Source: Amycolatopsis japonica | Lineage (GTDB): Bacteria > Actinomycetota > Actinomycetes > Mycobacteriales > Pseudonocardiaceae | Direction: 5' to 3' | Assembly (NCBI RefSeq): GCF_000732925.1 | Contig: NZ_CP008953.1 | Coordinates: 1,302,001-1,366,000 of the forward strand | Length of the DNA stretch: 64,000 bases | The notes under the pieces: model-generated | What the model was told of the DNA's origin: nothing | The model's database searches: none | Seen by the model: only the letters and a program-made list of their open reading frames with translations | In this document: one piece after another, positions 9,050 through 58,594 of the stretch | Numbering within the stretch: position 1 is the stretch's first letter | Layout: each line of letters begins with the position of its first letter | Translations under genes and position numbers: made by a program

Positions 9050-9114
9050 GCCCATGTCCTGAAGGCCCCCTTTGAGACGTTCAACGTCTCAAAGGGGGCC
9101 TTCAGGACATGGGC
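9050..9114. terminator. 65-bp perfect palindrome between convergent transcription units
   Basis: Arms 9050-9081 and 9083-9114 are exact 32-base reverse complements around a single base. The arms read GCCCATGTCC, TGAAGGCCCCCTTT, GAGACGTT. No T-tract follows on either strand. It lies between the DHFR-like gene (+) and the tRNA (-), where a bidirectional terminator is expected. The TGAAGGCC..CCTT core recurs at 37895, 38076 and 51535. Confidence 0.65.
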
Positions 9115-9143
9115 ACGCTCCGGGGGAGCGCCGCTCACGTGTC

Positions 9144-9190
9144 CCCAATGTCGCATAGGGGACGCTGAGCGTCTCAAATGCGACATTGGG
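9144..9190. repeat. Nested inverted repeat beside the 9050 palindrome
   Basis: Outer arms CCCAATGTCGCAT (9144-9156) and ATGCGACATTGGG (9178-9190) are perfect over 13 bp. An inner stem GACGCT/AGCGTC (9161-9166, 9168-9173) is separated from them by an internal loop. Together with the 9050 element it makes a double hairpin in the same gap. Confidence 0.55.
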
Positions 9191-9265
9191 AACCTTGCTG
9201 CACCCGGCCCAGTCCCGACGTGTCGCGAAAGCACTTTCGGGACATCGGCACCCGTCTGGCCGCGG

Positions 9266-9295
9266 TTGTCCACAGCCCTTCACTGTTGTGGATAA
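9266..9295. promoter_or_regulatory. Pair of inverted DnaA boxes
   Basis: TTGTCCACA at 9266-9274, identical to the actinomycete DnaA-box consensus, faces TTATCCACA on the opposite strand (TGTGGATAA, 9287-9295) across 12 bp. There is no dnaA, dnaN or AT-rich unwinding region nearby, so this is not oriC. DnaA titration or local regulation is possible. Confidence 0.5.
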
Positions 9296-9462
9296 CCCGA
9301 CCCCGCCAGCGCTTTCCCGGCGGGTCCCGCCTTCAACCCCCGATAGGCTGGACTCGGGGCCGCCCCCCTGGGACGGGTGGGGGCTGCGTAGGTGAGTTAA
9401 GAGCGGAGGGTTCGGCGACTTCGGCCTGACTTTCGCGCGGTCCGGTCGTCGAGCAGGTTGGG

Positions 9463-9536
9463 TGGGCCCGGAGAGACTCGAACTCTCACTGGCACGGACC
9501 TAAACCGTGTGCCTCTGCCAATTGGGCTACGGGCCC
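9463..9536 (-). tRNA. tRNA with UAG anticodon (Leu-type loop) but a short variable region
   Basis: The cloverleaf is complete: acceptor GGGCCCG/CGGGCCC, three-pair D-stem GCC/GGC with an 11-base D-loop, anticodon stem CACGG/CCGTG with loop TTTAGGT, T-arm GAGAG-TTCGAGT-CTCTC, discriminator A and no encoded CCA. The anticodon is UAG, which reads CUA/CUG. The loop TTTAGGT and the three-pair D-stem are what bacterial leucine tRNAs carry. However, the variable region is only CCAGT (5 bases), whereas leucine tRNAs normally have a long variable arm. An automated caller would label it tRNA-Leu(UAG). Its charging identity is open. Confidence 0.85.
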
Positions 9537-9661
9537 CCAGTACTGCCCCGAAATCGTAGCGTGCGACACGTTCGGCGTTTCTCGGCGTGGCCGATGCCAC
9601 GGCGTGGGGTGGCGTCCTCTAACGTGGGCTACCAGCAAGTCCGTCGCGGCGAGGAGGACAC

Positions 9662-9883
9662 GTGGCTCGCGATCCCGAGACCATCGAGCGTGAGATCGAG
9701 CAGGCCAGGAACGCGCTGGTCGCCACGCTCGACCAGCTGGGCACGAAGGCGAACCCCGCGAAGCTGGTGGATTCCGCGAAGACCGGTCTGCGCGCGAAGC
9801 TGGACGAGCCCAAGGTGAAGTACCCGCTCATCGGCGGGGCCGTGCTGATCGGCGTCCTGCTGATCCGCAAACTCCTGAAGTAG
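9662..9883 (+). CDS. DUF3618 single-span membrane protein
   Basis: The 73-residue protein begins ARDPETIEREIEQARNAL, the DUF3618 signature, continues with an amphipathic helix, and ends with one membrane helix (YPLIGGAVLIGVLLI) plus RKLLK. The GTG start has a strong GAGGAGGA ribosome-binding site. Family members are often encoded near phage-holin-like or stress membrane proteins, and none is here. It converges on the next gene with only 3 bp between stops. Function unknown. Confidence 0.8.
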   Translation: MARDPETIEREIEQARNALVATLDQLGTKANPAKLVDSAKTGLRAKLDEPKVKYPLIGGAVLIGVLLIRKLLK

Positions 9884-9886
9884 GTC

Positions 9887-10297
9887 TCAGGAGGTCTGGG
9901 CCGCCTTGGCGGGTGTCTTGGCAGGCTCGGACTTCTCCTTGGACTTCGCCTCGTCGACGGCCTTCGGGAGTTCCTTGCCCTGGGGTACCGGAGGCTTGCC
10001 GCCGGTCTTCTCCTTGGCCTTGCCGTTCGCCGGCGGGGGAACCTCGAGCGGTTCGATCTCCGGGAGCGTCAGCCTCGCCGTCATGTAGGCGGCGGTGAAC
10101 TCGAGCGCGCTGCCGTTCAGCAGGTGCACCACGGTCGAATGTTCCGGCGGGGACAGTTTCTCGACCAGCTGGTCGGCCCGGTCCCGTGCCGCGATGATGC
10201 CCGGCGCGCGACCGGTCAGTTCCTTACCGGAGCCGCTGACCGTGACCTTCCAGTCGTCGTCCTCTTGGACGTACGACGCGGTGATCGGTTCGGTCAT
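9887..10297 (-). CDS. Hypothetical protein with a small folded head and a Lys/Pro/Ala/Glu tail
   Basis: I do not recognise a family. Residues 1-90 (MTEPITASYVQEDDDWKVTVSG, then ELTGRAPGIIAARDRADQL) look like a compact alpha/beta domain of about the size of DUF1902/HicB-like modules. Residues 95-136 are low complexity (KAKEKTGGKPPVPQGKELPKA...KTPAKAAQTS), probably disordered. I chose the ATG at 10297, behind GAGGGGTGAGG, over an upstream in-frame start at 10324. Upstream there is a hairpin GTGTC-acaa-GACAC (10454-10467) in the gap to the TetR gene. Confidence 0.65.
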   Translation of the reverse strand: MTEPITASYVQEDDDWKVTVSGSGKELTGRAPGIIAARDRADQLVEKLSPPEHSTVVHLLNGSALEFTAAYMTARLTLPEIEPLEVPPPANGKAKEKTGGKPPVPQGKELPKAVDEAKSKEKSEPAKTPAKAAQTS

Positions 10298-10530
10298 CCG
10301 CCTCACCCCTCTCCTCGCGAGCATGCGTCACTCAATGGACTTCGTCACGCCGCCGTCATGACGCCACTTTCGGGTGGTGGCGCCCCCTCCTGACGGAGGC
10401 CGCGACTGTCCATCAGACTTTCTACAGTGTCATCGATACAGTAGGACAACTCTGTGTCACAAGACACTGGCGGCAATGTGCTCTGAGTGACGACCGAATG
10501 GCCTAATGCACGAGCATCTTCACGGTCGTT

Positions 10531-11130
10531 TCAGCGGGCCCTCGCCGACAGGCCTGACCAGAGGATGTCCATCGCGTATCCGGTCGCCGTTTCGGGGCTG
10601 ACGTCCTCGTGTCGTTCGCACCAGATCGCGAGGCGTTCGCACGCCCCGACGACGAACTCCGCGGACGCCTCGGCGCGGAGGTCGTCGGCCTGGTCGAGGT
10701 GGTCGCTCATCAGCGCGGCGATCAGGTCGGTCTGCTGGCGGCGGGTCTGCTCGATCTCGTCGGCGGCGCCGGTCCCGATCAGCGCCATCTCGTGGCGGAG
10801 CAGTGACCAGGCCTGTCGCCGTTCCCGGATGAAGACGAAGAACGCGAGCAGTCCGCGCCGCAGCGCGTCCTCGGCCGACGTCGCGCCGACGGTCGCCCGT
10901 TCGGTGACTTCGCGCAGGGCCGCCCGCGACTGCTGGATGCAGGCGAGCAGGAGTCCCTCTTTCGAGTTGAAGTACTCGTAGAGCATCGGCTTGGAGACCC
11001 CGACGCGTTCCGCGATGTCGTCCATCGACGCCGCGCTGTAGCCGCGATCGGCGAAGACTTCTTCAGCGATCTCGATCATTTGCCGCATCCGCTCTGCTCG
11101 TGGCATGCGTTTGCGCTTCGCCGTCGTCAT
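10531..11130 (-). CDS. TetR-family transcriptional repressor
   Basis: The 199-residue protein has a clear TetR HTH near residues 18-60 (IEIAEEVFADRGYSAASMDDIAERVGVSKPMLYEYFNSKEGLL), followed by an all-helical ligand domain. It is divergent from the flavin monooxygenase at 11211, with an 80-bp gap containing symmetrical elements. The usual reading is that it represses the monooxygenase until a substrate-like ligand arrives. The start is ATG 11130, or GTG one codon earlier. Confidence 0.88.
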   Translation of the reverse strand: MTTAKRKRMPRAERMRQMIEIAEEVFADRGYSAASMDDIAERVGVSKPMLYEYFNSKEGLLLACIQQSRAALREVTERATVGATSAEDALRRGLLAFFVFIRERRQAWSLLRHEMALIGTGAADEIEQTRRQQTDLIAALMSDHLDQADDLRAEASAEFVVGACERLAIWCERHEDVSPETATGYAMDILWSGLSARAR

Positions 11131-11147
11131 CACAACACTCTACCGAA

Positions 11148-11190
11148 GGTAACCTACTTCGAGTAAGGTGAACTCCCGGTAACAGGTAAT
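11148..11190. promoter_or_regulatory. Candidate TetR operator between tetR and the monooxygenase
   Basis: The divergent gap contains GGTAACC (11148-11154) overlapping TACT-tcg-AGTA (11155-11165) within CCTACTTCGAGTAAGG. A second GGTAAC lies at 11179-11184. Overlapping dyads placed midway between two divergent starts are typical of a TetR operator. The precise boundaries are inference. Confidence 0.45.
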
Positions 11191-11210
11191 GCGAACGAGA
11201 GGTCGGGGTC

Positions 11211-12671
11211 ATGGGCAACCGCACCGAGACCGGTGTCGTCATCGTCGGAACCGGCTTCTCCGGGTTGGGCATGGCCATTCAGCTGCGGAAAGAGGGCCGC
11301 GAGGACTTCGTCATCCTGGAGAAGGCCGACGACGTGGGCGGCACGTGGCGCGACAACACCTACCCCGGCTGCGCCTGCGACATCCCCTCGCATATGTACT
11401 CGTTCTCGTTCGAGCAGAACCCCGGCTGGTCCCGCACGTACTCGCCGCAGCCCGAGATCTGGCAGTACATGCGCGACGTCGCCGCGAAGTACGACCTGCA
11501 CCGCTTCATCCGCTTCGGCCAGGAGATGACCGGCGCCCGCTGGGACGCCGACGAGAACCGCTGGCACGTCGCGTCGAAGTCGGGCGACGAGTTCGTCGCG
11601 CCCGCGCTGGTCGCCGGCGTCGGTGCGCTGCATCTGCCGCAGATCCCGAAACTGCCCGGCATCGAGCGCTTCAAAGGCCGTGCGTTCCACTCCGCGCAGT
11701 GGGAGCACGACTACGACCTCACCGGCAAACGGGTCGCCGTGGTCGGCACCGGCGCGAGCGCGATCCAGTTCGTGCCTCAGATCGCGAAGGACGTCGCCGA
11801 GCTGACGCTCTTCCAGCGGACACCGCCGTGGATCATGCCGAAGCCGGACCGTGAGATGCCCCAAGCGCTGCGGAAGACGTTCAGCTCGGTGCCGCTGCTG
11901 CAGCGCGCTTTCCGCGACGTTCTCTACTGGGGCCTCGAAGCCCGCGCGATCGGCTTCAACGGGCAGCCGTGGGTGATGAAGATCGGCCAGCGCATCGCGA
12001 AGCGCAACATCTTCAAGAGCGTCAAGGATCCCGAACTGCGCAGGAAGCTGACGCCGGACTACACCATGGGCTGCAAGCGGGTCCTGGTCTCTAACGACTA
12101 CTACCCGGCGCTCGCGCGGGACAACGTCGACGTCGTCACCGACGGCGTGAAAGAGGTCCGTGAGCACAGCGTCGTCGACGGCGCCGGCGTCGAGCACGAG
12201 GTCGACGCGATCATCTACGGCACCGGATTCCACGTCACCGACGCCTTCGACGACCTGGAGATCATCGGCCGCGACGGGCGCAACCTCGGCAAGGAGTGGG
12301 CGACCGAGGGGATGCGGACCTATCAGGGCATCACCGTGTCCGGGTTCCCGAACCTGTTCTTCCTGCTCGGCCCGAACACCGGGCTGGGGCACAACTCCGT
12401 GGTGTTCATGATCGAGGCGCAGATCTCGTATGTCGCGCAGGCGCTGCGGCTCGCGCGAGGCAAGGCGCTCGACCCGCGGCCGGAGGCGCAGGAGCGTTTC
12501 AACGGTGAGATCCAGCGCAAACTCGCCAAGGGCATCTGGACCCAGGGCGGCTGCAAGAGCTGGTATCTCGACGCGAAGGGCGTCAACCGCACGATCTGGC
12601 CGGGCTTCACCTGGCGGTACTGGCTCGACACCCGCAAGGTGCGCCGCGAGGACTACGAACTCCTCGGCTGA
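11211..12671 (+). CDS. Flavin-containing (Baeyer-Villiger type) monooxygenase
   Basis: The 486-residue protein has an N-terminal FAD-binding motif VGTGFSG (12-18) followed by EKADDVGGTWRDNTYPGCACDIPSHMYSFSF, the classic class B monooxygenase start. A second dinucleotide motif VVGTGASA binds NADPH. Between them, FKGRAFHSAQWEH (about 154-166) corresponds to the Baeyer-Villiger fingerprint FxGxxxHxxxW[PD], with E in the last position. Such enzymes insert oxygen into ketones or oxidise heteroatoms. The divergent TetR gene suggests it is substrate-induced. It is followed by the hairpin at 12684-12725. Confidence 0.88.
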   Translation: MGNRTETGVVIVGTGFSGLGMAIQLRKEGREDFVILEKADDVGGTWRDNTYPGCACDIPSHMYSFSFEQNPGWSRTYSPQPEIWQYMRDVAAKYDLHRFIRFGQEMTGARWDADENRWHVASKSGDEFVAPALVAGVGALHLPQIPKLPGIERFKGRAFHSAQWEHDYDLTGKRVAVVGTGASAIQFVPQIAKDVAELTLFQRTPPWIMPKPDREMPQALRKTFSSVPLLQRAFRDVLYWGLEARAIGFNGQPWVMKIGQRIAKRNIFKSVKDPELRRKLTPDYTMGCKRVLVSNDYYPALARDNVDVVTDGVKEVREHSVVDGAGVEHEVDAIIYGTGFHVTDAFDDLEIIGRDGRNLGKEWATEGMRTYQGITVSGFPNLFFLLGPNTGLGHNSVVFMIEAQISYVAQALRLARGKALDPRPEAQERFNGEIQRKLAKGIWTQGGCKSWYLDAKGVNRTIWPGFTWRYWLDTRKVRREDYELLG

Positions 12672-12683
12672 GGAAAGGGGGAG

Positions 12684-12725
12684 GGTCCGTGAAAGCCAAG
12701 ATGGGGGGCATGGCCTTCACGGACC
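12684..12725. terminator. Hairpin between convergent genes
   Basis: Arms 12684-12698 and 12711-12725 pair over 15 bp with one mismatch (GGTCCGTGAAaGCCA against TGGCCTTCACGGACC), with a 12-base loop. It fills the gap between the monooxygenase (+) and the XRE gene (-). It has no T-tract. The GTCCGTGAAGGCC word recurs in the palindrome at 51535. Confidence 0.6.
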
Positions 12726-12739
12726 GGGGAACGCCGCGC

Positions 12740-13210
12740 TCATGAGGGGTTGAGCCGGCGAAGCCTTCCGATGAGATCGACGGTGGGGATGCCGCAGAGT
12801 TCGGCCATCCGTTCCAGCGCCGCGAAATCGAGGTGGACCTCGGCCGAGCCGTTGTCACTCGATCTCTTGAGCCGGTCGTCGGCCCACCGTCGCAGCGGGA
12901 GCAGTTCCTGCTGCTCGTCCTTGATCACCAGGCGCAGGTCGATCCGCACCCGGCCCGGTTCGTCCACGAACACCCGGCGGTGCACCTTGGCCAGCAGATC
13001 CTGTGGCAGCTCGTCCATCGCGACGCACAGTTCGACCAGCCGCACCACGGAACAGTGCCGGGTGCCCAGCTCGTAGGTGGCCAGCGTCTGGAGCGAGATC
13101 TCGCTCTGCAGATGCTGGTTCAGTTCCTTGCGTGTCCAGCCACGTTTACGGCGGAGCTTGCGGAGCTCGTCTCCGAGTATCCGCTGATAGCTCTCAGCGT
13201 CGATCAGCAC
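12740..13210 (-). CDS. XRE-type helix-turn-helix regulator
   Basis: The 156-residue protein has an N-terminal HTH_3/XRE domain (LGDELRKLRRKRGWTRKELNQHLQSEISLQTLATYELGTRHCSVVRL, residues about 10-60). A C-terminal part of unknown fold is typical of Pseudonocardiales DNA-binding proteins of this size. The GTG at 13210 (VLIDAESYQRIL) has a G-rich ribosome-binding site. An in-frame GTG/ATG further upstream would add low-complexity residues and is less likely. The gap to the LCP gene downstream of its promoter is 184 bp and shows only GAGCGCGCTC (13271-13280). Confidence 0.78.
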   Translation of the reverse strand: MLIDAESYQRILGDELRKLRRKRGWTRKELNQHLQSEISLQTLATYELGTRHCSVVRLVELCVAMDELPQDLLAKVHRRVFVDEPGRVRIDLRLVIKDEQQELLPLRRWADDRLKRSSDNGSAEVHLDFAALERMAELCGIPTVDLIGRLRRLNPS

Positions 13211-13394
13211 TCCCCATCCCCTGCCTTGCCAACCTTCTCCACCGCCCGTCCCATGTGACAAAACCAGGGACGAGCGCGCTCACGTGTATGAAAGTCGGCA
13301 GGGGCGCCGCTCTTACGCGGTTTCGGGGGTGGTTTTCCCATCTATTTTGGCCGGCTGGGCCGAATGGGTGAAGAAACCCTGCTCGAAGAGCGCG

Positions 13395-15017: not shown

Positions 15018-15179
15018 GCGGTCTGCTCCTTCTGTTCGTTACCGGTTCGACGGTCTCTTCAAGGGACGCATGGTGCCTGTTGCGGGTTGTCGCAGGATTA
15101 CACATCCCCCCGAAGATGTGGCACGCACCACCGGTTTCCTCTCAAGGGTACGGAAATCCCCTGGTCAGCGCCGTGTGGT

Positions 15180-17342: not shown

Positions 17343-17418
17343 GGGATCAAGGGTGCCATCCGCCGATCGGGGCCGACATCCGGATAACCCCCGGGTTCAC
17401 CCACCAGGTGTCCCTCGG

Positions 17419-20815: not shown

Positions 20816-21709
20816 ATGAACGGTTTGCTCGACGACAAGGCCGTCGTCGTGACCGGGGCGGGTCGTGGCCTCGGCGAGGCGTTCGCGGTGCACGTGGCGA
20901 GGGCGGGCGGGGCCGTCGTGGTGAACGACATCGACGCCGAACTGGCCGAACGGACGACGGAGAACATCCGGCGGTTCGGGGGCAGGGCGGTCGCCAGCGG
21001 TCACAGCGTCGCCGATCCGAAGCAGGCGCAGGAGATCGTGGACCTCTGTCTCGCGGAGTTCGGCGCGATCGACGGGCTGGTCAACAACGCGGGCCTGAAC
21101 TACGAGGCGCTGCCGTGGGAGGACGACGTCGAGCAGGCCCGGGAACTGGTCGAGGTGAACGTCCTCGGCGTCATGTACACCGGGCTCGCCGCGATCAAGG
21201 CGATGGTTTCGCGGGGCACGCCCGGCTCGATCGTCAACATCTCGTCCGGGGCGTCGCTCGGGCAGCGCAAGCTCGGCGTGTACGCCGCCAGCAAGGGCGC
21301 CGTCGCTTCGCTGACCTACTCCTGGGCGCTCGACCTGGAGGAGAGCGGGATCCGGGTGAACGCGGTCTGCCCGCTCGCGCACACCCGGATGGTGTGGAAG
21401 TCCGAACGGTCGCTGCGGGCCTGCCCACCGGACCGGACGCCGTCGCGGATCGCGCCGGTCGTGCTCTTCCTGCTCGGCTCCGGATCCGACGGGATCACCG
21501 GGCAGATGATCCGCTGCAACGGGCCGCAGCTGCACGTCATGGGCCAGCCGTACCTGAAGCAGCCCATCCTCGAGCGGCCGGTGTGGGACACCGAGACCGT
21601 GCAGCGCGCCTTCGACGAGGTCTTCAGCGCGCACCTGGAGAACTACGGCCTCGAAAAGCGTGTCCCGCCCCGGCTCCGCAAATGGACGGAGTCCACCCGG
21701 ACCGCCTGA
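20816..21709 (+). CDS. Short-chain dehydrogenase/reductase
   Basis: The 297-residue protein is a classical SDR oxidoreductase. It has the cofactor motif VTGAGRGLGEAF at about residues 12-23, NNAG at about residue 90, the catalytic serine region SIVNISSG and YAASK at about 155-159. The acidic residue in VVNDIDAE after strand 2 favours NAD(H). A C-terminal extension of about 50 residues (VWDTETVQRAFDEVF...) exceeds the usual 250. The ATG at 20816 is chosen for its AAAGGGGTGAAGG ribosome-binding site; a GTG upstream lacks one. The substrate is unknown. Confidence 0.88.
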   Translation: MNGLLDDKAVVVTGAGRGLGEAFAVHVARAGGAVVVNDIDAELAERTTENIRRFGGRAVASGHSVADPKQAQEIVDLCLAEFGAIDGLVNNAGLNYEALPWEDDVEQARELVEVNVLGVMYTGLAAIKAMVSRGTPGSIVNISSGASLGQRKLGVYAASKGAVASLTYSWALDLEESGIRVNAVCPLAHTRMVWKSERSLRACPPDRTPSRIAPVVLFLLGSGSDGITGQMIRCNGPQLHVMGQPYLKQPILERPVWDTETVQRAFDEVFSAHLENYGLEKRVPPRLRKWTESTRTA

Positions 21710-21723
21710 CACCCGTGATCAGA

Positions 21724-21860
21724 CGGACGACACGCGTGATCAGAGACGGAACTCGCGTGATCAGGCGGCGAACTCACGTGATCAGAGACGGAACGCCTCC
21801 AATCACGCGAGTCCCGTCCCCAATCACGCGAGTTCGCCATCCAGTCACGCGTGTCGTCCG
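21724..21860. repeat. 137-bp mosaic palindrome built from GTGATCAG units, between convergent genes
   Basis: Four left-hand units (ending in CGCGTGATCAG or CACGTGATCAG, with different linkers such as AGACGGAACT and GCGGCGAACT) face three reverse-complement units (AATCACGCGAG.., CAGTCACGCG..). The outermost 16 bp, 21724-21739 and 21845-21860, are a perfect inverted repeat. Inner units pair with one or two mismatches. It fills the gap between the SDR (+) and DinB-like (-) genes. The same unit recurs at 37725-37838. Confidence 0.7.
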
Positions 21861-21862
21861 GT

Positions 21863-22519: not shown

Positions 22520-22582
22520 GGCGGCAAGTTAGCAGCGGTCGCCGACCGGTCGCGACTCCTTTCGGCCCGGTCCGCGTGCGAT

Positions 22583-22625
22583 GAACGGTCCTTTCCTGGC
22601 AAATTTCGCAAGGAAAGGACCGTTC
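22583..22625 (-). terminator. Palindrome downstream of the acyl-CoA ligase gene
   Basis: Arms GAACGGTCCTTTCCT (22583-22597) and AGGAAAGGACCGTTC (22611-22625) are perfect over 15 bp and extend inward with two mismatches to an AAATTT centre. The sequence is nearly the same as the palindromes at 31328-31382 and 42421-42475. It has no T-tract. Confidence 0.6.
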
Positions 22626-22642
22626 CTGGCGCGCGCGAGGGG

Positions 22643-31327: not shown

Positions 31328-31382
31328 TGCCAGGAACGGTCCTTTCCTTGCAAATTTCGCAAGGAAAGGACCGTTCCTGGCA
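31328..31382. terminator. 55-bp palindrome between cvnD and doxX
   Basis: Arms 31328-31351 and 31359-31382 are perfect over 24 bp (TGCCAGGAACGG, TCCTTTCCTTGC) around AAATTTC. It separates convergent genes. Fifteen inner bases are shared with the palindrome at 22583, and the TCCTTTCCTTGC word with that at 42421. Confidence 0.7.
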
Positions 31383-31966: not shown

Positions 31967-32003
31967 AGGCTCCTTTCCTGGAATCAATCCAGGAAAGGAG
32001 CCT
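31967..32003 (-). terminator. Intrinsic terminator with T-tract after doxX copy 2
   Basis: Arms AGGCTCCTTTCCTGGA and its complement (31967-31982, 31988-32003) are perfect over 16 bp. Read on the minus strand, the stem is followed directly by TTTTTATC. This is the only member of the palindrome family here with a clear T-tract. Confidence 0.8.
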
Positions 32004-37724: not shown

Positions 37725-37838
37725 CGTGAGTTGCACCGCACTCACGTGATCGAGGGCGGAACTCGCGTGATCAGAGGCGGAACACCCGAGTGCGGCCTCC
37801 AGTCACGCGAGTCACGTCCCTGATCACGCGAGTCACGC
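37725..37838. repeat. Second copy of the GTGATCAG mosaic palindrome
   Basis: It contains ACTCACGTGATCGAGGGCGG and ACTCGCGTGATCAGAGGCGG facing CCAGTCACGCGAGT and CTGATCACGCGAGT. Nested dyads CGTGAGT/ACTCACG (37725-37731, 37740-37746) and CCGCACTC/GAGTGCGG are present. The units match those at 21724-21860, and the position (after a plus gene, before a minus gene) is the same. Confidence 0.65.
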
Positions 37839-37894
37839 CGTTGCTCACGCTGCGCCCTGCGCTTCGGATCGGTAGATACTGGGTCGGGCACCTG

Positions 37895-37953
37895 AAGTAC
37901 ATGAAGGCCCCCTTCCTTGCGCCTGGCGCAAGGAAGGGGGCCTTCATGTACTT
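37895..37953. terminator. 59-bp perfect palindrome
   Basis: Arms 37895-37923 and 37925-37953 are exact 29-base complements (AAGTACATGAAGG, CCCCCTTCCTTGCGCC). The TGAAGGCCCCCTT core is shared with the element at 9050, and CCTTCCTTGC resembles the 42421 element. It has no T-tract. Confidence 0.7.
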
Positions 37954-38067
37954 GGGGAAGGGGTGAAGGTCGAGTTTCCTCGGCTGAGCCGAGGGATGGG
38001 GGCCTTCACGCGCCGCCGTGGTGGTCGTTGTGATTGCTGGTGCAGGTGAGCTGCAGGTGGCGATCTC

Positions 38068-38122
38068 TGAAGGTAGTGAAGGCCTCCTTCACTACCTTCA
38101 GGGTAGGTAAGGAGGCCTTCAC
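38068..38122. terminator. Two mutually exclusive hairpins
   Basis: Hairpin A pairs 38068-38082 with 38086-38100 (TGAAGGTAGTGAAGG, 15 bp perfect). Hairpin B pairs 38076-38089 with 38109-38122 (GTGAAGGCCTCCTT, 14 bp perfect). The bases 38076-38089 belong to both, so only one can form at a time. Downstream of the macrodomain gene (-) and the TolB-like gene (+). Confidence 0.6.
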
Positions 38123-41573: not shown

Positions 41574-42428
41574 ATGATGCGGACGATCGAACGTGTCGCC
41601 TACGCGACCGGGGCGCTCCTGTTCCTCAGCGGTCTCGTGCACGCGGTCGTGCTGATCGCGTCCGGCGGTTCGTGGACCGGGCCGCTGTCGATGCGGAAGG
41701 CGGTCACGTTCGGCCTTTCGTTCGGGCTGACGCTCGCCACCGTCGCCTGGGCGACGTCGTACGTCGCGGTCCGGCCACGCGTGCGGAACACGCTGCTCGG
41801 CGTGTTCACGGGGGCGAGTGTCGTGGAGACGGTGCTGGTGAGCATGCAGGCCTGGCGCGGGGTGCCGTCGCATTTCAACTTCGAGACCGGCTTCGACAAC
41901 GCCGTGTCGACGACGCTCGCGGCGGGCGGCGGCGTCATCATCCTGACGGCGGTGACCTTCACGGCCGCGGCGATGCGCGGCGAAGGGGAGACGACGGCGA
42001 GCATGCGGCTCGCGGTGCGGTTCGGGCTCGTCGCGCTCCTGGTGGCGCTGGGCGCGGGCGCGGCGATGATCGCGAGCGGCGTCGTCGAGGCGCGGGGCGG
42101 GAATCCGCAACTCGCGTACACCACCGCCGGCGCGCTGAAGCCGCTGCACGCGGTGGCGATGCACGCGATCCTCATCGTGCCGGGGCTCGCCTGGCTGCTG
42201 CGGTTCGCGGACTGGACGGAACGGCGGCGCGTGCGGCTGGTGTGGGTGGCGATCGGCGCCTACTCGGTGCTGACCGCGGTGGTGGGGCTGGAGTCGGTGA
42301 CCGGGGTTTCGCCGCTGGCGGCTTCGCCGGTGGAGATGGTGACTTCGGGACTGGCCCTGGTGGTGCTGGGGCTTATCGGTGCGGTGGCCGGCCGTGAAGC
42401 GGTTCGGCGTCGGTCCCGGCTGCCATGA
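41574..42428 (+). CDS. Seven-to-eight-helix membrane protein of unknown function
   Basis: The 284-residue hydrophobic protein has helices such as ATGALLFLSGLVHAVVLIASGG, LVALLVALGAGAAMIASGVV and LHAVAMHAILIVPGLAWLL, and histidines in several helices (VHAVV, LHAVAMHA) that might bind haem or a metal, although no family is certain. The ATG at 41574 (an ATG ATG pair) is the first start after a divergent promoter region. The palindrome 42421-42475 begins inside its last codons and contains the stop. Confidence 0.7.
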   Translation: MMRTIERVAYATGALLFLSGLVHAVVLIASGGSWTGPLSMRKAVTFGLSFGLTLATVAWATSYVAVRPRVRNTLLGVFTGASVVETVLVSMQAWRGVPSHFNFETGFDNAVSTTLAAGGGVIILTAVTFTAAAMRGEGETTASMRLAVRFGLVALLVALGAGAAMIASGVVEARGGNPQLAYTTAGALKPLHAVAMHAILIVPGLAWLLRFADWTERRRVRLVWVAIGAYSVLTAVVGLESVTGVSPLAASPVEMVTSGLALVVLGLIGAVAGREAVRRRSRLP

Positions 42429-42475
42429 AAGGTCCTTTCCTTGCAAATTTTGCAAGGAAAGGACCTTTCATGGCA
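42421..42475. terminator. 55-bp palindrome containing a stop codon
   Basis: Arms 42421-42447 and 42449-42475 are exact 27-base complements (TGCCATGAAAGG, TCCTTTCCTTGCAAA). The stop TGA at 42426-42428 of the membrane-protein gene is inside the left arm, and the UvrA-like stop is 5 bases to the right. It shares TCCTTTCCTTGCAAA with the element at 31328. Confidence 0.75.
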
Positions 42476-45602: not shown

Positions 45603-45612
45603 CCTTCTCCGC

Positions 45613-49478: not shown

Positions 49479-49615
49479 GCCGGATCGCCCGTTCTCGGCA
49501 CGCTCCTGTGCGTTCCCATCATCCCCACCTCCCGAAAGCCCCCAGCCCTCTTTGGCCCTTCCGACGTTACGGAGCGCGCCCGCGCGTCACACCGGTACAG
49601 CAGCCCGGAGTAGTC

Positions 49616-49629
49616 GGGTCTTTAGACCC
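49616..49629. promoter_or_regulatory. GGGTCT-TT-AGACCC dyad upstream of chitinase 1
   Basis: The 6-bp arms are perfect. It lies 31 bp before the dre-like site, and its GGTCT/AGACC core is that of a DasR site. It may be a second weak dre or part of the sigma-factor promoter. Confidence 0.4.
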
Positions 49630-49659
49630 TGGTGGGCCAGGGGTATGGACTTTCGCCAG

Positions 49660-49674
49660 ATTGGTCTAGACAAT
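49660..49674 (+). promoter_or_regulatory. dre-like DasR-binding site of chitinase 1
   Basis: ATTGGTCTAGACAAT contains the 8-bp palindrome GTCTAGAC and matches the dre consensus A(C/T)TGGTCTAGACCA over its first 12 positions. It lies about 45 bp before the start codon of a GH18 chitinase. DasR is the GntR-type repressor of chitin/GlcNAc genes in actinomycetes. The regulator gene is not in this window. Confidence 0.75.
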
Positions 49675-49718
49675 TAGCCCAGCGCGGCGGCAGGCCGCCC
49701 TTTCACGGAGGAATCGCG

Positions 49719-51488: not shown

Positions 51489-51534
51489 TCCGCATCCAGA
51501 GGACTAAACGCGTCGCTTGTGGGCGTCGGGACTT

Positions 51535-51587
51535 TCCGTGAAGGCCTCCTTGAGGGACCCAGAGTCCCTCAAGGAGGCCTTCACGGA
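51535..51587. terminator. 53-bp palindrome between convergent chitinase genes
   Basis: Arms 51535-51558 and 51564-51587 are perfect over 24 bp (TCCGTGAAGGCC, TCCTTGAGGGAC) with a 5-base loop. It shares TGAAGGCCTCCTT with the hairpin at 38076. It has no T-tract. Confidence 0.7.
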
Positions 51588-51600
51588 CCGGCGACCCCAC

Positions 51601-51662
51601 GCATTTCGTCCTCTGAATGCGATCCTTGCGCGTGCAACGATCGCATTCAGAGGACGAAACGC
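51601..51662. terminator. Second palindrome, arm word GCATTTCGTCCTCTGAATGCG
   Basis: Arms 51601-51624 and 51639-51662 pair over 24 bp with one mismatch, and the loop contains a TTGC/GCAA stem. A near copy of one arm (CGCATCCAGAGGACTAAACG) follows the chitinase 1 stop at 51491. Another 21-base copy is inside the coding sequence at 58339. Confidence 0.65.
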
Positions 51663-51731
51663 GGGCAACAAGGGAGCGAGCCCGCACCGTGCAGCATCGG
51701 TGCGGGCCCGCAGTACGGGGAGCAAGGGACG

Positions 51732-53102
51732 TCAGAAGCCCGCGGTGATCCGCGTGAAGTCCCAGTCGTTCTGTGCGATACCACTGCAGTTCTCGGCGAC
51801 CCCGCCGTTCGGGCAGCCCCGGTCACGGTTGGTCGACCAGAACGCCAGCCTGGCGATCTTGTTGGTCTTCGACCAGTTCGTGATCCGGGTCCAGGTGTCG
51901 AGACTCGTGAGTTCCCGCTGGTCCGAAAGACCGTTCATCCCGCTGATGCCCAGGTGGCCGTACGCCGTGGCGTCGTTCCACCCGAAGGTCGACTTCAGCT
52001 TGTCCCGCAGACCGTTCGCGGCGTTGATCGTGTTGCCGTACATGTCCGCGCCGCCGCCGAAGTCGAACGGCATGATCGTGTAGACGTCGATCCCGGCGTT
52101 CAGCGCCTTCGACTGGTCGATGAGCCGCTGGCCCCAGAAGTTCGGGCCGGTGGTCGTCGTGCCGAAGGTGAGAATGGTCTGGATACCGGGGTTGTTCGCC
52201 TTCACGATCTTCAGCGCGTTCAGCACGCGGTCCTGCACGGCCGCGTTCTCGAATTCGTCGGTGTTCTCGATGTCGATGTCGATCGCCTTGAGACCGTAGG
52301 CGTCGATCACCTTCTGGTAAGCGCCGGCGAGCGCTTCGGGCGTCGAGCAGTTCGGGCCGAGCTTGTTGCCGCTCCACCCGCCGAAGGACGGCACGATCTG
52401 CCCGCCCGCGGCCTTGATCTGCGCGATCGCGTTCGCGTCGACGCCGCCCTGCAGCGGACGGCTGCCGTCCCAAGCCGGGTTGCAGCCACCGGACGACAGG
52501 ATGAACGCCATCGTGAACCATTTGATCCCGGTCGCGTTCATGACCGTCTGCGGGTTCGGCGGACTTCCCCAGCCCATGTACAGATACGGCGCGCCACGGC
52601 CGCCGGGCAGGGGCGGGTTGCTCGTGGTGGTCGTCGGGGAGGACGTCGTGGTCGTGCTGGTGGGCGTGGTCGGCGTCGTGGTCGGGCCGCCACCGCCCGG
52701 ATCGCACGAGCCACCGTTGATCTTGCAGTTCGCCGGGGCGACGTAGCCGCCGGAGTACTTGACGTTGAACCCGAAACTGGTGCTGCCACCGTTGGAAAGG
52801 TTGCCGTTCCAGGTGTTCTTCACCGTCACGTGCTGCCCGGAGACCGAGTAGCTGCCGTCCCACAGCGAAGCGATCGAGTGCCCGGCCGGGAGGTCGAATT
52901 CGACCGTCCAGGCGGGAAGGCTCGATCCCGAGTTGTTGCTGATCGTGTACTTGCCCTCCCAGCCGGAGCCCCAGTCGGAGCCCTTGCTGAAGGCGGCACC
53001 GACGCCGCCGGCCGCGGAGGCCGGCGCGATCACGAGGACCGCGCCGGCCGTTGCGGCAGCGGCGGACAGGCCGATGGCCTGGATCCAAGTCCGCTTAGCC
53101 AC
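51732..53102 (-). CDS. Secreted GH18 chitinase 2 with CBM2
   Basis: The 456-residue protein has a signal peptide (1-31), a CBM2 module (about 33-130, KGSDWGSGWEGKYTISNNSG, ending APANCKINGGSCDPGGG), a Thr/Pro/Ser linker and a GH18 domain of the shorter chitinase-D/endo type (YMGWGSPPNPQTV) with catalytic KAIDIDIENTD (Glu near 279). The GTG at 53102 follows GAGAGG by six bases. A TTG two codons earlier is less likely. It starts about 10 bp after chitinase 3 ends, so both are transcribed from the promoter at 54908. The CBM2 is nearly identical to that of chitinase 3. Confidence 0.92.
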   Translation of the reverse strand: MAKRTWIQAIGLSAAAATAGAVLVIAPASAAGGVGAAFSKGSDWGSGWEGKYTISNNSGSSLPAWTVEFDLPAGHSIASLWDGSYSVSGQHVTVKNTWNGNLSNGGSTSFGFNVKYSGGYVAPANCKINGGSCDPGGGGPTTTPTTPTSTTTTSSPTTTTSNPPLPGGRGAPYLYMGWGSPPNPQTVMNATGIKWFTMAFILSSGGCNPAWDGSRPLQGGVDANAIAQIKAAGGQIVPSFGGWSGNKLGPNCSTPEALAGAYQKVIDAYGLKAIDIDIENTDEFENAAVQDRVLNALKIVKANNPGIQTILTFGTTTTGPNFWGQRLIDQSKALNAGIDVYTIMPFDFGGGADMYGNTINAANGLRDKLKSTFGWNDATAYGHLGISGMNGLSDQRELTSLDTWTRITNWSKTNKIARLAFWSTNRDRGCPNGGVAENCSGIAQNDWDFTRITAGF

Positions 53103-53112
53103 AGTCAACCTC

Positions 53113-54750: not shown

Positions 54751-54799
54751 TTCACTCCTTACAACCCGGTGCAGGGAAATGATCTTGGAGATGATTTCG

Positions 54800-54865
54800 T
54801 CAAAGGGAAATCGGCGACATCGCGTTGCCTCGGCCGAAACCGGGCAGGCGGGGATGAGTCTTCAT
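54800..54865 (-). CDS. Possible leader peptide upstream of chitinase 3 (21 residues)
   Basis: An ATG with a perfect GGAGG six bases upstream opens a frame of 21 codons (MKTHPRLPGFGRGNAMSPIS then L and stop). It lies between the dre-like site and the chitinase start. No family is recognised. A start signal this good in a leader is unlikely to be ignored by ribosomes, so it may affect expression downstream. Without comparative data it could be chance. Confidence 0.3.
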   Translation of the reverse strand: MKTHPRLPGFGRGNAMSPISL

Positions 54866-54907
54866 CGACCACCTCCATGCGGAACGCTTTGTTGCGGGAG
54901 ACGGTAC

Positions 54908-54922
54908 GTGGTCTGGACCAAT
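54908..54922 (-). promoter_or_regulatory. dre-like DasR site of the chitinase 3-2 unit
   Basis: TGGTC-TG-GACCA at 54909-54920, inside GTGGTCTGGACCAAT, has the perfect DasR-type arms and only the central TA changed to TG. A second symmetrical element, CTACGTAG within CACTACGTAGAGTG, is 15 bp further upstream. It lies about 160 bp before the chitinase start, so the promoter is probably here and the leader is long. Confidence 0.75.
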
Positions 54923-55011
54923 ATGGGAAGCATCACTACGTAGAGTGGTGATTTTCCTGCGAACGGCCTAATACGTTCGACAGCGTTAATCGTTCACTGG
55001 TCCGCTGCCCT

Positions 55012-55443
55012 TCAGCGGCGGAATTCGTCCATTTCGCCGAGCCGGGCGATATTCGCGGATTCGTCGGGGTCGGGCAGGACACCGGAAAGGAACACGTCGG
55101 TGATTTCGACGGCCACGTCGGGCGCGAGCCGCTTGAGGCTCAGTGCCAGCACGTTCGCGTCGTTCCACTTGCGCGCGCCCGCGGCGATCCAGGTGTCCCA
55201 GGCCAGCGCCGCGCGGACCCCGGGCACCTTGTTGGCCGCGATCGCCGTGCCCGTCCCGGTCCAGCACATCACCACGCCGAAATCGGCCTCGCCGTCCGCG
55301 ACCGCCCGGCCCACCGCCGCGCCGAGTTCCGGCCAGACGTCCGACGCCGCCGGGCGCAGCACCTCGTGGCCCGCCTCGGCGAGATACGCCTGGACGGCGT
55401 CCGTGGTGGCGTTCCGGTCGTCGGCGGCGAAGGCGATCCTCAT
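55012..55443 (-). CDS. RpiB/LacA/LacB-family sugar-phosphate isomerase-like protein
   Basis: The 143-residue protein has the RpiB fold pattern: MRIAFAADDRNATTDAVQAYLAEAGHEV, VGRAVADGEADFGVVMCWTGTGTAIAANKVPGVRAALAWD (active-site cysteine in VMCWTGTG) and NDANVLALSLKRLAP. Typical RpiB has GxGNGE/GTGxGMxxAxNK; WTGTGTAIAANK is close. It may isomerise ribose-5-phosphate or another aldose phosphate. The gene is monocistronic and divergent from a TetR gene. Confidence 0.85.
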   Translation of the reverse strand: MRIAFAADDRNATTDAVQAYLAEAGHEVLRPAASDVWPELGAAVGRAVADGEADFGVVMCWTGTGTAIAANKVPGVRAALAWDTWIAAGARKWNDANVLALSLKRLAPDVAVEITDVFLSGVLPDPDESANIARLGEMDEFRR

Positions 55444-55503
55444 GTCCGGATCGTAACGCCGCGTCGACAGGTGACGAACCCGAAGTCATGGGAGGATCTC
55501 GGC

Positions 55504-56133
55504 GTGGACTCGTCTGCGGAGGAGCACCAGGTCCAGCGTGAGCAGGAGATCGCACGGACACGGATTCTCGAAACCGCCGCCCGCCTGATCGGCGAGGCAG
55601 GTTTCGCCCGGCTCAAGATCGGCATGATCTGCGCCAGGACCGGCTATCCCAGCGGCGTCGTCTACCAGTTGTTCGGCTCGAAGGAGACGCTGGTGCAGCG
55701 GCTCGTCGAGTTCGCCGCGGAGAAGTTCGCCGACGTCTTCAGCGCCGCCGTCGCCACGCGGACCGGCGGGCTGACGCCCAGCCCGATGGACATGCTGCGT
55801 GCCCTCCTGGACATCTTCTTCGAGCTGCTCACCGACATGCCGCCGCTGAACCGGGCGTTCGTGGTGCTCTGGACGGACGCGACCGTCGGCGATCCGGCGG
55901 TGCGGTCGGCGATGACCGAGGCCGACCGCCGGTACCGGTTCGCCATCGCGCAGACCGTCGCCGCCGGACTCGCGGACGGTTCGATCACCGGCGTCCGCGA
56001 CCCGGACGCGTACGCGGCGGCGCTGGTGGGGCAGCTGCGGGGGATCGCCGTGGCCTCGATCATCGACCCGGGCGGTATCGACTTGCGGGCGGTCCGCGCG
56101 GAGATGGAGTACGCCGTGGACCGGCTCGCCTAA
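55504..56133 (+). CDS. TetR-family transcriptional regulator
   Basis: The 209-residue protein carries an HTH at about 18-65 (ARTRILETAARLIGEAGFARLKIGMICARTGYPSGVVYQLFGSKETLVQRL), then a ligand domain of the TetR_C type. The GTG at 55504 has GGAGG eight bases upstream, which decides between several in-frame starts. It is divergent from the RpiB-like gene with a 60-bp gap; that gene is the likely target. A small CAGGC/GCCTG stem (56167-56179) lies before the convergent DM13 gene. Confidence 0.85.
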   Translation: MDSSAEEHQVQREQEIARTRILETAARLIGEAGFARLKIGMICARTGYPSGVVYQLFGSKETLVQRLVEFAAEKFADVFSAAVATRTGGLTPSPMDMLRALLDIFFELLTDMPPLNRAFVVLWTDATVGDPAVRSAMTEADRRYRFAIAQTVAAGLADGSITGVRDPDAYAAALVGQLRGIAVASIIDPGGIDLRAVRAEMEYAVDRLA

Positions 56134-56183
56134 CCCGGACCCCGCCCCGCCGCCACCCTCAACGGACAGGCTTCGCCTGGCTG

Positions 56184-56738
56184 TCAGATCTTGGCCAGCT
56201 CGGCCGCGCCGAAGGACACGTTGAACCGGTCGCACCAGATCGTCACGCTCGAATAGCGCGCCAGATCGGTGCCCGCCGGCAGCGTGTAGTTCTGGCTTCC
56301 CTTGTTGCCCTTGAGTTTCCCGGCGCTCACGTACGCGCCGTCGTCGAACACGGACCAGCCGTCCTTGCCGGGGAGTACCGGCGCGTCGGTGAGCCAGACC
56401 CGCAGATCCGGGCCGTTGCTCGTGTCGAGGTTTTCCAAGCGCAGCACCAGCGATCCGTCGGCCGCGCGCAGGATCCGGACGTCGCCGGTGGTCGCGTGCT
56501 CGTGGCTGATCAGCGTGCCGGTCGCCACGACCATGGGCTCTTTCGGGGCGGGCGTGGCACTTCCGGTGGCTTGGGTGGTGGGCTGGGCCGTGGTCTCGGC
56601 GACGGGCAGCGCCTCCTGGACCGTCTCGTTCACCCAGAGCTTCCACGGCTGGAACCAGTAGAGGCCCGCGGCCACCGCCACCACCAGTCCGGCCGCCACG
56701 ACGGCGAGCACCCGCTTGCGTTTCATGCGTTCATTCAA
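56184..56738 (-). CDS. Anchored DM13-domain protein
   Basis: The 184-residue protein has an N-terminal helix (about 9-28), a Thr/Ala/Pro linker and a DM13 domain: GTLISHEHATTGDVRIL, LRLENLDTSNGPDLRVWLTDAPV, then VTIWCDRFNVSFGAAEL with the conserved cysteine. DM13 is thought to be an electron-transfer or redox module. It presumably faces outward. The start is ATG 56738 (MNERMKRKR); ATG 56726 is possible. Its promoter faces that of the symporter gene at 56870. Confidence 0.85.
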   Translation of the reverse strand: MNERMKRKRVLAVVAAGLVVAVAAGLYWFQPWKLWVNETVQEALPVAETTAQPTTQATGSATPAPKEPMVVATGTLISHEHATTGDVRILRAADGSLVLRLENLDTSNGPDLRVWLTDAPVLPGKDGWSVFDDGAYVSAGKLKGNKGSQNYTLPAGTDLARYSSVTIWCDRFNVSFGAAELAKI

Positions 56739-56869
56739 CCCCGTGCGGGGCGAGGAGTGCGGTTACCGAACTCTTACGGGTCACGTCTGGGTTTCGGTGG
56801 CTTGACCGGGTTCTCGCCGCTTGACACGATTGCCGATCTGAAAAGGGCATATCGGACGGAGGCCCCTCG

Positions 56870-57736
56870 ATGGGTACGGCGATGTTTTCGATCCTCCTGC
56901 CGATAGCGCTGGCGCTCGTCATGTTCGGGCTGGGACTGACCCTGACCGTCGGCGACTTCACGCGCGTGCTGAAGTACCCGAAGGCCGCCGTCATCGCGCT
57001 GGTGTGCCAGATGATCGTGCTGCCCGTGATCTGCGTGGGCCTGATCGTGCTGTTCGGGCTGGAAGGCGTGCTCGCGGTCGGGATGATGCTGCTCGTCGCG
57101 TCGCCCGGCGGCACGTCGGCGAACCTGTTCAGCCACCTCGCCGGCGGCGACGTCGCCCTCAACGTCACGCTCACGGCGATCAACTCCGTACTGGCCGTGT
57201 TCACCCTGCCGCTGGTGGTCGGCCTGTCGATGGCCGAATTCCTCGACGGCGGCGCCTCGGTCGGGCTCCAGCCCGCGAAGTTCGTGCAGGTCTTCGCGAT
57301 CGTGCTGATCCCGGTCGTGCTCGGGATGGCGGTGCGGCACCGGTTCACCGCCTGGGCCGAGCGGATGCGCAAACCGGTCAAGATCGGCTCCGCCGTGGTG
57401 CTCGTGCTGGTGATCGCGGCCGCGATCGCGCAGGAGTTCCGGACGCTGGTGGACAACATCGGCACGCTCGGGCCGGTGGCGCTGGCGCTTTCCGTGCTCA
57501 GCCTCGCGATCGGGTACTACGTGCCACGCCTGTTCCGGGTGGACCGCGGGCAGGCGATCGCGTCCGCCATGGAGATCGGTGTCCACAACGCCACCCTCGC
57601 GATCGCCGTGGCGTTCTCCGTGCTCGGTGACAAGGCGATGGCCGTGCCGGCCGGGGTCTACGGCGTGCTCATGTTCCTGCCCGCCGGGATCGCGGCGTTC
57701 CTGTTGTCCCGCAGCAGGGAGAGCGCGCCGGTGTGA
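56870..57736 (+). CDS. Bile acid:sodium symporter family transporter
   Basis: The 288-residue protein has about 9-10 helices and the SBF signature: LGLTLTVGDFTRVLKYPKAA, SPGGTSANLFSHLAGGDVALNVTLTAINSVLAVFTLPLVV (the sodium-site region) and MEIGVHNATLAIAVAF (the later crossover). The substrate is unknown; bacterial members carry pantoate-, keto acid- or organic anion-like compounds. It is followed 14 bp later by the alpha/beta hydrolase, probably in the same transcript. Confidence 0.9.
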   Translation: MGTAMFSILLPIALALVMFGLGLTLTVGDFTRVLKYPKAAVIALVCQMIVLPVICVGLIVLFGLEGVLAVGMMLLVASPGGTSANLFSHLAGGDVALNVTLTAINSVLAVFTLPLVVGLSMAEFLDGGASVGLQPAKFVQVFAIVLIPVVLGMAVRHRFTAWAERMRKPVKIGSAVVLVLVIAAAIAQEFRTLVDNIGTLGPVALALSVLSLAIGYYVPRLFRVDRGQAIASAMEIGVHNATLAIAVAFSVLGDKAMAVPAGVYGVLMFLPAGIAAFLLSRSRESAPV

Positions 57737-57750
57737 GCTAGTTTGGGGGC

Positions 57751-58554
57751 GTGGCGCGTTCCCCCATCGGCGACATCCTCGACGTGAACGGCGTCGCCGT
57801 CCATGTGCGTCAGGACGGCGCCGGGCCGCCGGTGGTGTTGCTGCACGGGTATTGCGGGTCGGTGCACTGGTTCGACCGGCTCACCCTCGGCCTGTCCGCG
57901 ACGCGGCACGTGATCCGGGTGGATCTGCTGGGGCACGGATGCACCGGTGGTTCGTCCGGGCTCGACGCGGTGTCGCAGGCGCGCATGGTGGCCGGCGTCC
58001 TCGATGCGCTGGGCGTCGAGGACGTTCTGGTCGCCGGTCACTCCTTCGGCGCGGATGTCGCCTTGGCGCTGGCCGAAATCTCGCCGCGGGTGGGTTCCCT
58101 GGTGCTGATCGGGCAGGCGCCGGATTACAGCTACGCGTCCTTTCCGCCGGGGAGTGCGGTGCTGCTGCCGATGGTCAGCGCGCTCGTGCGGCTCGTGGCT
58201 CACCGCCCATGGGTGCGGTTCGCGTCGCGGTTTCGCCGAGCGGGCTGGTTCGACGATCCCTTGCAGGACTTGGCCGATCACGCGGTCACCTCGCCCGCGA
58301 TGGCCCGGGTGGTACTCGTGGAACGCGCGCGACTGCTCGCATTTCGTCCTCTGGATGCGCAAGTGGCGGCCTTGGGGTTGCCGTGCCTGGTGATTCTCGG
58401 GCGCCGGGACCGTTTTTACGACTGTGACAAGACTTTCGCGCGGTATTCGGCGGTCGGGGCGCGGGTGGAGGTCGTCGAAGGCGTCGGGCATTCGCCGTTC
58501 TTGGAGCGGCCTGGCGAGGTCGCTCGGTTGCTTCAGGAGTTCAGGGGGTCGTGA
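57751..58554 (+). CDS. Alpha/beta hydrolase
   Basis: The 267-residue protein has VVLLHGYCGSVHWFDRL (oxyanion HG), the nucleophile elbow VAGHSFGADVAL, ILGRRDRFYD (acid) and VEGVGHSPFLERP (histidine). The fold is that of esterases/epoxide hydrolases. The start is GTG 57751. The segment LLAFRPLDAQVAA near residue 200 is encoded by the 21-base word at 58339 that also appears in intergenic palindromes. The palindrome at 58547 covers the last three codons. Confidence 0.87.
   Translation: MARSPIGDILDVNGVAVHVRQDGAGPPVVLLHGYCGSVHWFDRLTLGLSATRHVIRVDLLGHGCTGGSSGLDAVSQARMVAGVLDALGVEDVLVAGHSFGADVALALAEISPRVGSLVLIGQAPDYSYASFPPGSAVLLPMVSALVRLVAHRPWVRFASRFRRAGWFDDPLQDLADHAVTSPAMARVVLVERARLLAFRPLDAQVAALGLPCLVILGRRDRFYDCDKTFARYSAVGARVEVVEGVGHSPFLERPGEVARLLQEFRGS
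58339..58359. repeat. Palindrome arm word inside a coding sequence
   Basis: The 21 bases starting GCATTTCGTCCTCT and ending GGATGCG differ at one position from 51601-51621, which is an arm of an intergenic palindrome. The reading frame of the hydrolase runs through it without disturbance. Confidence 0.6.
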
Positions 58555-58594
58555 GTGGCGTTTCGGGTTCTAACCCGAAACGCCACTCACGACC
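58547..58594. terminator. 48-bp palindrome containing a stop codon
   Basis: Arms 58547-58569 and 58572-58594 are perfect over 23 bp (GGTCGTGAGTGG, CGTTTCGGGTT). The hydrolase stop TGA (58552-58554) lies in the left arm. It separates the plus-strand hydrolase from the minus-strand decarboxylase. It has no T-tract. Confidence 0.75.

Follow-up and report, generated by a model that had tools for sequence, protein, structure and literature searches.

The genome of Amycolatopsis japonica (9.05 Mb in two contigs) carries long, often perfect palindromes between its genes, and a stretch of 64,000 nucleotides from it (the window, G000:C1:1302001-1366000) displays them at most of its convergent gene junctions. 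They belong to about ten sequence families, found in one clade of Amycolatopsis. The explanation favored here, with somewhat more confidence than an even bet would warrant, is that these are dispersed elements resembling the repetitive extragenic palindromes (REPs) of other bacteria, which would act as transcription terminators or barriers at RNA 3' ends and would be homogenized by copying between sites. Their function, two-way termination, is probably ordinary; their evolution is unusual, with dispersed families that swap at the same place and are spelled differently from species to species. The evidence comes from location, structure, a mismatch bias in the RNA sense, dispersion, species-specific spelling, and differing cores at orthologous sites.

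The distribution of the palindromes was surveyed in 61 pieces of the genome (1.26 Mb: the window and 60 evenly spaced 20-kb stretches) under a strict rule requiring a score of at least 14 and a loop of 0-8, with genes called by a purpose-written script rather than taken from curated annotation (1136 genes, 85.7% coding). The survey yielded 166 palindromes, compared with none in one block-shuffled version of the same pieces, so that chance or base composition as their source was rejected, as it was by 200 shuffles of the arms described below. An earlier note on this DNA, made from the letters of the window, had claimed that a family of palindromes marks convergent junctions. The enrichment is real: counting only gaps of at least 40 bp, a palindrome occurs in 80 of the 119 between convergent genes, compared with 44 of 282 for tandem and 7 of 200 for divergent neighbors (Fisher p 1.6e-23 and 1.2e-36), and densities per kb are likewise unequal (2.88, 0.79, and 0.19, with 0.006 in genes). 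Confinement to such junctions was rejected, as the 166 comprise 95 convergent, 51 tandem, 12 divergent, and 7 genic elements and 1 at a piece edge; that members of the families seen at convergent junctions also occupy tandem gaps of the window (22573-22635) had been missed. (As tRNA genes were left out of the survey calls, the pair flanking the element at 9050 was scored as tandem.) Where genes converge, the nearest stop codon lies at a median of 10 nt from the element, and in 46 of the 51 tandem cases the upstream stop is nearer than the next start.

Of the elements, 159 lie outside genes. In 53 of these the palindrome is perfect with arms of at least 20 nt. The arms of 125 share at least two 10-mers with another element, compared with a mean of 2.29 and a maximum of 9 in the 200 arm shuffles, which bears out the earlier claim of words reused beyond chance. 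Clustering, by a slightly different rule, placed 127 elements in 12 groups of at least two and left 32 as singletons; the largest group joins the TGAAGGCCTCCTT and TGAAGGCCCCCTT types (48 elements), followed by the GGTCC types (24), GAAAGCCACTTTC (15), and CGTCCTCTGAATGCG (13). Two words from palindromes of the window illustrate the copy number: the 20-mer TGAAGGCCCCCTTCCTTGCG is matched exactly at 88 places in the genome (43 forward, 45 reverse), and the 21-mer GTGAAGGCCTCCTTGAGGGAC has 161 matches. No known RNA family accounts for the elements, a candidate identity rejected because a search of the 64-kb window with Rfam at gathering thresholds matched tRNA alone.

Several properties point to an RNA-level role. 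Because a position that pairs as G-U in the RNA from one strand becomes an A-C mismatch in the RNA from the other, a hairpin that is read in one direction is predicted to tolerate G-U selectively, whereas one that is read in both is not. In the transcript sense, stems in tandem gaps with a score of at least 12 contain 36 G-U against 12 A-C mismatches (one-sided p 0.0004), compared with 21 and 22 in convergent gaps (p 0.016 for the difference); at a score of at least 14 the counts are 25 and 9 (p 0.0045) in tandem and 20 and 21 in convergent gaps. This constraint is what a bidirectional U-less hairpin terminator would impose. The remaining features also match such terminators, with a stable hairpin shortly behind the stops on both sides and few Us. 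Predicted folding energies of the first eight convergent elements listed range from -26 to -56 kcal/mol on either strand, and the flanks of convergent elements are T-poor, with at least 3 T in 8 in just 31 of 190, in keeping with the remark in the earlier note that most lack a T-tract. Taken together, position and stem pattern suggest that the elements are probably two-way, U-less transcription terminators. A role beyond mere termination had also been proposed; as regards function, the stem bias and the closeness to upstream stops still look like termination.

How the elements change between species was addressed from two directions, the first being counts of exact matches on both strands (17 genomes for GGTCC-family spellings, 12 for a second family). 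In the closely related genome G007, which is 95.9% identical to that of A. japonica (G000) over 164.8 kb aligned, the core of one family differs: the AAAGGTCCTTTCC type occurs 136 times in G000 and once in the relative, and the AACGGTCCGTTCC type 0 and 90 times. Matches to GAAAGGTCCTTTCCTTGC number 136 in G000, 121 in G049, 55 in G016, 53 in G022, 45 in G032, and 18 in G015, with 1-6 in six other genomes (1 in G007) and 0 in five (including G020 and G046). For GAACGGTCCGTTCCTTGC the counts are 90 in G007, 57 in G032, 12 in G031, and 8 in G015, with 3-4 in three others and 0 in G000 and nine more; for GAAMGGCCCGTTACTTGC they are 179 in G020, 130 in G046, 3 in G043, 1 in G008, and 0 in all others, G000 included. 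In G000 and G007 the main GGTCC spelling dominates without being the sole one. In the second family, GTCCTCTGRATGCGG is frequent in G015 (319), G049 (257), G046 (221), G000 (195), G016 (179), G032 (170), and G007 (78) and rare in G020 (15), G022 (4), and G043 (3), and GTCCTCTGGTYGCGG occurs in G043 (95), G020 (64), G046 (19), G016 (7), G049 (5), G032 (4), G015 (3), and G007 (1), with no match in G000 or G022; G030 and G004 contain neither. Reversed patterns used as controls gave no matches for the 20-mer, the 21-mer, the broader GGTCC-family pattern, or the three GGTCC spellings, and at most one per genome for the second family.

The second direction was the comparison of orthologous junctions, for which synteny was followed in seven relatives. 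The palindrome at 42421-42475, a perfect 27+1+27 of sequence TGCCATGAAAGGTCCTTTCCTTGCAAA, fills the gap between gene ends at 42428 (+) and 42480 (-). In a genus search its region had matches, some of them paralogues, in all 60 genomes; of 30 loci, 13 from relatives show both flanks. Six of these (G032, G020, G015, G046, G043, G016) have a palindrome of the same type in a different spelling, four (G007, G031, G006, G008) have the GCGAAAGCCACTTTCGC type, and the rest have a short hairpin (G053), other families (G049), or none (G022). In a seven-species alignment, 11 of 26 pairs changed on both sides and none on one side; of the 182 cells, 97.8% pair, with 24 two-sided changes, no one-sided change, and 4 unpaired. 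The covariation score was reached by 0 of 500 shuffles, counts that are not probabilities as the rows are related.

Elsewhere whole families are exchanged. The junctions at 31328, 37895, and 51535 hold different families in different species. At 31328, G032, G020, and G046 have the same type, G015 and G016 the same outer words around a different core, G007 another family, and G043 other inverted repeats. At a junction outside the window (G000 C1:1235149), 17 genomes were compared, with both flanks covered in 9 and the fetched piece too short in the other 8: G000, G019, and G014 have overlapping stops and no element, G007 and G032 the GCGCGTGAAGGCC type, G053 the GTGTGTGG type, G018 and G049 the TCGTGAGTGG type, and G016 no palindrome by the strict rule.

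Four collinear sites at which both G000 and G007 have the GGTCC family were compared without selection for spelling, and three of them differ in both arms, with AAAGG-type cores in G000 and AACGGTCCGTT in G007. Five further orthologous sites all differ likewise in the core; these were picked from a list of the G007 spelling and are biased to that extent, and the last was aligned over one arm only. Two of the five are also occupied in G032 and G046, each with a spelling common in that genome. The simplest reading of the differing sites is that the element is older than the species and that its core was altered later.

The mechanism proposed for the elements as terminators homogenized by copying has two parts. 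A near-perfect palindrome with a short loop would give a similarly strong RNA hairpin from both strands, and because the two hairpins are nearly the same, a single element could stop two facing transcripts without a U-tract. Copying between sites would keep the copies of a family alike within one genome. The preferred cause of that copying is probably ectopic gene conversion, possibly triggered when an extruded hairpin is broken or repaired, and its outcome would be that each species tends toward its own spelling at dozens of sites, symmetrically in both arms, with gain, loss, and replacement by other families occurring at the same junctions as well. A copying mechanism was among the options offered in the earlier note, and it is the part of its proposal beyond termination that has fared best, offering the best explanation of the word sharing in view of species spelling and symmetric core differences at orthologous sites.

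A number of observations weigh against this explanation. Homogenization is incomplete, as the broader GGTCC-family pattern (counted in 8 genomes) is matched 185 times in G000 and 121 times in G007, in each case more than the main spelling, and GAAAGGTCCTTTCCTTGC and GAACGGTCCGTTCCTTGC are mixed in G032 (45 and 57) and in G015 (18 and 8). The fourth unselected site (window 22573) is unchanged, with AACGGTCCTTT in both G000 and G007, and 3 of 12 compared GGTCC-family sites of G000 hold another family in G007. As judged by eye, four of the eight differing sites retain the outer bases of their left arm and the other four have changed them, so that exact replacement by a new copy is possible. Repeats of 55 bp are short for homologous exchange, species spelling rests on one genome per species, and selection for a common sequence is a possible alternative to copying. 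Twelve palindromes lie in divergent gaps, where terminators are not expected, and termination itself is inferred from position and stem pattern. A bolder proposition, entertained tentatively and judged rather less likely to be right than wrong, is that the terminators of this clade form a palindrome population rewritten in place, genome-wide and symmetrically, by hairpin-triggered copying without a REP transposase; molecular drive would then shape the evolution of stop signals at dozens to hundreds of gene ends, making them differ from one sister species to the next.

Classical spread by transposition, as for REPs or miniature inverted-repeat transposable elements served by a transposase in trans, is an unlikely competitor. 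The spellings would then reflect recent bursts, and orthologous occupancy would reflect re-insertion at preferred gene ends. High copy number, presence or absence between relatives with conserved flanks, the alternation of several families at one junction, the nesting of one palindrome within another, and, at four of the eight differing sites, a change of the outer arm bases together with the core would all fit. So would a junction with a 70-bp element, which has a full-length match in 7 of 17 genomes (by coordinates only), has 5-12 bp between its flanks in G007, G053, G018, G019, and G032, and differs otherwise in the other five. However, the four sites that keep their outer arm bases around a changed core (for example, CGCTATG in both species) are not expected from re-insertion, the Y1 transposase family PF01797 has no match in the G000 genome, to which the search was limited (5 of 14 control genomes were positive), and among the few cases read there is no target duplication beyond a 2-bp repeat. 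A clean insertion as proof of mobility is weakened, since a site without the element may have lost it by deletion between short repeats: in a 63-bp presence/absence difference with nearly identical flanks only GA is repeated, and deletion is equally possible. The nesting itself was seen on contig C13 of G007, opposite the region of G000 C1:1275992, where a GGTCGTGAGTGGCGATTCGGGTT-family palindrome lies inside the apex of a GTCCTCTGGATGCG-family palindrome.

Less probable still is a sequence-specific factor acting in trans, protein or RNA, that reads the core, with the sites following its drift by selection. Core words common to several families, read by eye as TGAAxGGNCCxTTC, and the change of spelling at many sites together would suit such a factor, as would an inner palindrome of the arms that is longer than in shuffled arms (mean 4.01 over 142 unique arms versus 3.13, the highest of 100 shuffles being 3.4). 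Against it, families with unrelated words hold equivalent places, orthologous junctions swap families, and the G020 core AAAGGCCCGTT disrupts the inner palindrome. A DNA-level role at convergent junctions, in which cruciforms absorb supercoils or serve as nucleoid or condensin sites, appears very improbable: near-perfect symmetry and the positive supercoiling that builds up between convergent genes would favor it, but the excess of G-U over A-C in tandem stems depends on the strand, which points to RNA, convergent genes whose stops overlap can lack an element (G000, G019, G014), and limited testing gave no evidence in support of this suggestion of the earlier note.

Among known systems, REPs and their transposases are the nearest, and the elements behave like REPs. 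According to PMC3733652 and PMC3116915, REPs, bacterial interspersed mosaic elements (BIMEs), and REP doublets forming hairpins (REPINs), with the associated REP-associated tyrosine transposases (RAYTs), share with the Amycolatopsis elements short, extragenic, high-copy palindromes mainly in convergent and tandem gaps, species-specific sequence, and composite arrays. REPs are described as lying mainly between unidirectional and convergent genes, and a CGTC class seems to have no transposase of its own (PMC3733652). The Amycolatopsis arms differ in being longer and often perfect, and several families alternate at one junction. Copies are plentiful (159 outside genes), but the REP foot GTAG is not enriched (4 of 318 feet versus 19 of 1272 control places), nor is CGTC (12 of 318 versus 103 of 1272), and because the tests for the GTAG foot and the Y1 transposase (in the G000 genome) fail, the elements are not filed as REPs. 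In Streptomyces clavuligerus, U-poor structured 3' ends (HS-U-lack) and bidirectional ends have been described, and the I-shaped or U-less terminators of GC-rich bacteria share the stable hairpin just behind stops, the paucity of Us, and two-sided use (PMC8269248); the Amycolatopsis hairpins, predicted from sequence, differ in forming dispersed, species-specific families.

In Neisseria and Haemophilus, some terminators are built of DNA uptake sequences. Inverted copies of a word forming terminators at gene ends are common to both cases, but many word families rather than one are used in Amycolatopsis, and few of its palindromes (7 of 166) lie within genes. A link between terminators and uptake signals is mentioned in PMC2267715. 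For REP sequences, gene conversion was reportedly treated by Higgins in 1988; the idea of homogenization by conversion is shared, whereas in Amycolatopsis a comparison of close species shows cores that differ in both arms at orthologous sites. No report of these elements in Amycolatopsis appeared among the literature matches listed, and the portion of the main text of RepRanger (PMC12306157) available does not name the genus.

The system appears restricted to one clade of Amycolatopsis. The earlier note had proposed a comparison with other Pseudonocardiales; the 21-mer GTGAAGGCCTCCTTGAGGGAC is present in 6 of 150 genomes of the order, all six among the 7 drawn from the same genus, and in 0 of 143 sampled from other genera, so that an order-wide occurrence was rejected. 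In a small sample of 20-120 kb per genome, a score of at least 20 was reached by a single palindrome, in G139, among the 10 genomes of other genera and by none in the more distant congeners G004 and G030; at a score of 14 these twelve have 0-17.5 per 100 kb (highest in G086), compared with 11.7-21.7 in seven relatives. If the proposed explanation is true, antibiotic-producing actinomycetes possess a class of gene-end signals that undergoes concerted evolution, and the old question of what keeps REP-like repeats similar within one genome becomes testable in a genome with no PF01797 match. The elements are also ready-made candidates for short two-way terminators in GC-rich hosts, and their symmetry would suit probing how bacteria keep long palindromes.

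Within the window, inverted repeats were found at all eight of the ten non-overlapping convergent junctions named in the earlier note, six under the strict rule and two weaker, and the two exceptions it gave (9883-9887 and 56133-56184) are confirmed. Its observation of excess arm length also holds, with perfect cases of 32+1+32, 29+1+29, and 27+1+27. The first of these, 9050-9114 (feature 9047-9117), contains words TGAAGGCCCCCTT and lies between the end of a gene at 8869 (+) and a tRNA on the minus strand at 9463-9536; a second palindrome follows at 9141-9193 (26-nt arms, 85% complementary). The other strict-rule junctions, besides 42421-42475, carry 31328-31382 (TGCCAGGAACGGTCCTTTCCTTGCAAA); 37895-37953, the perfect 29+1+29 (AAGTACATGAAGGCCCCCTTCCTTGCGCC) from which the 20-mer derives, with 38067-38101; 51535-51587, a perfect 24+5+24 (TCCGTGAAGGCCTCCTTGAGGGAC ccaga) containing the 21-mer, with 51600-51663 (CGCATTTCGTCCTCTGAATGCGATCCTTGC, 28 of 30 pairs); and 58547-58594, a perfect 23+2+23 (GGTCGTGAGTGGCGTTTCGGGTT) that overlaps the stop of the gene ending at 58554 (+). 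The tandem palindrome at 22573-22635 is of GGTCCTTTCC type.

At the first of the two weaker junctions, the hairpin at 12684-12725 (GGTCCGTGAAAGCC / GGCCTTCACGGACC, 13 of 14 pairs and a 14-nt loop, read by eye) was aligned across 6 genomes, and G015 has an additional inverted repeat with CGCGTGAAGGCCCCCTTCCCTC arms between hairpin and stop codon, its loop exceeding the strict rule. The inverted array at 21701-21862 consists of CGTGATCAG / CACGCGAGT words in 61-nt arms that are 74% complementary; it is missing in 3 of 6 relatives with both flanks (G020, G043, G016), in which the gene ends overlap or lie 5 bp apart. The same words form an array at 37740-37849, and both arrays have several word repeats per arm, unlike the simple palindromes. 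A composite repeat at 37954-38122 combines split GTGAAGG..CCTTCACGCGCC arms, a spacer, and the CTGAAGGTAGTGAAGG hairpin at 38067-38101; G007 holds a matching composite at a different junction (by eye), a BIME-like mosaic.

The hairpins at 31967-32003 and 51676-51711 (the latter GCGAGCCCGCACCG, adjoining the gene at 51732 (-)) were found in place in 8 of 8 compared genomes and look like ordinary, vertically inherited terminators, in contrast to the dispersed families. An AT-rich palindrome at 4060-4097 (TTTCCATGTTGGAAA), close to a gene start and within an 808-bp stretch missing from G007, is perhaps an operator.

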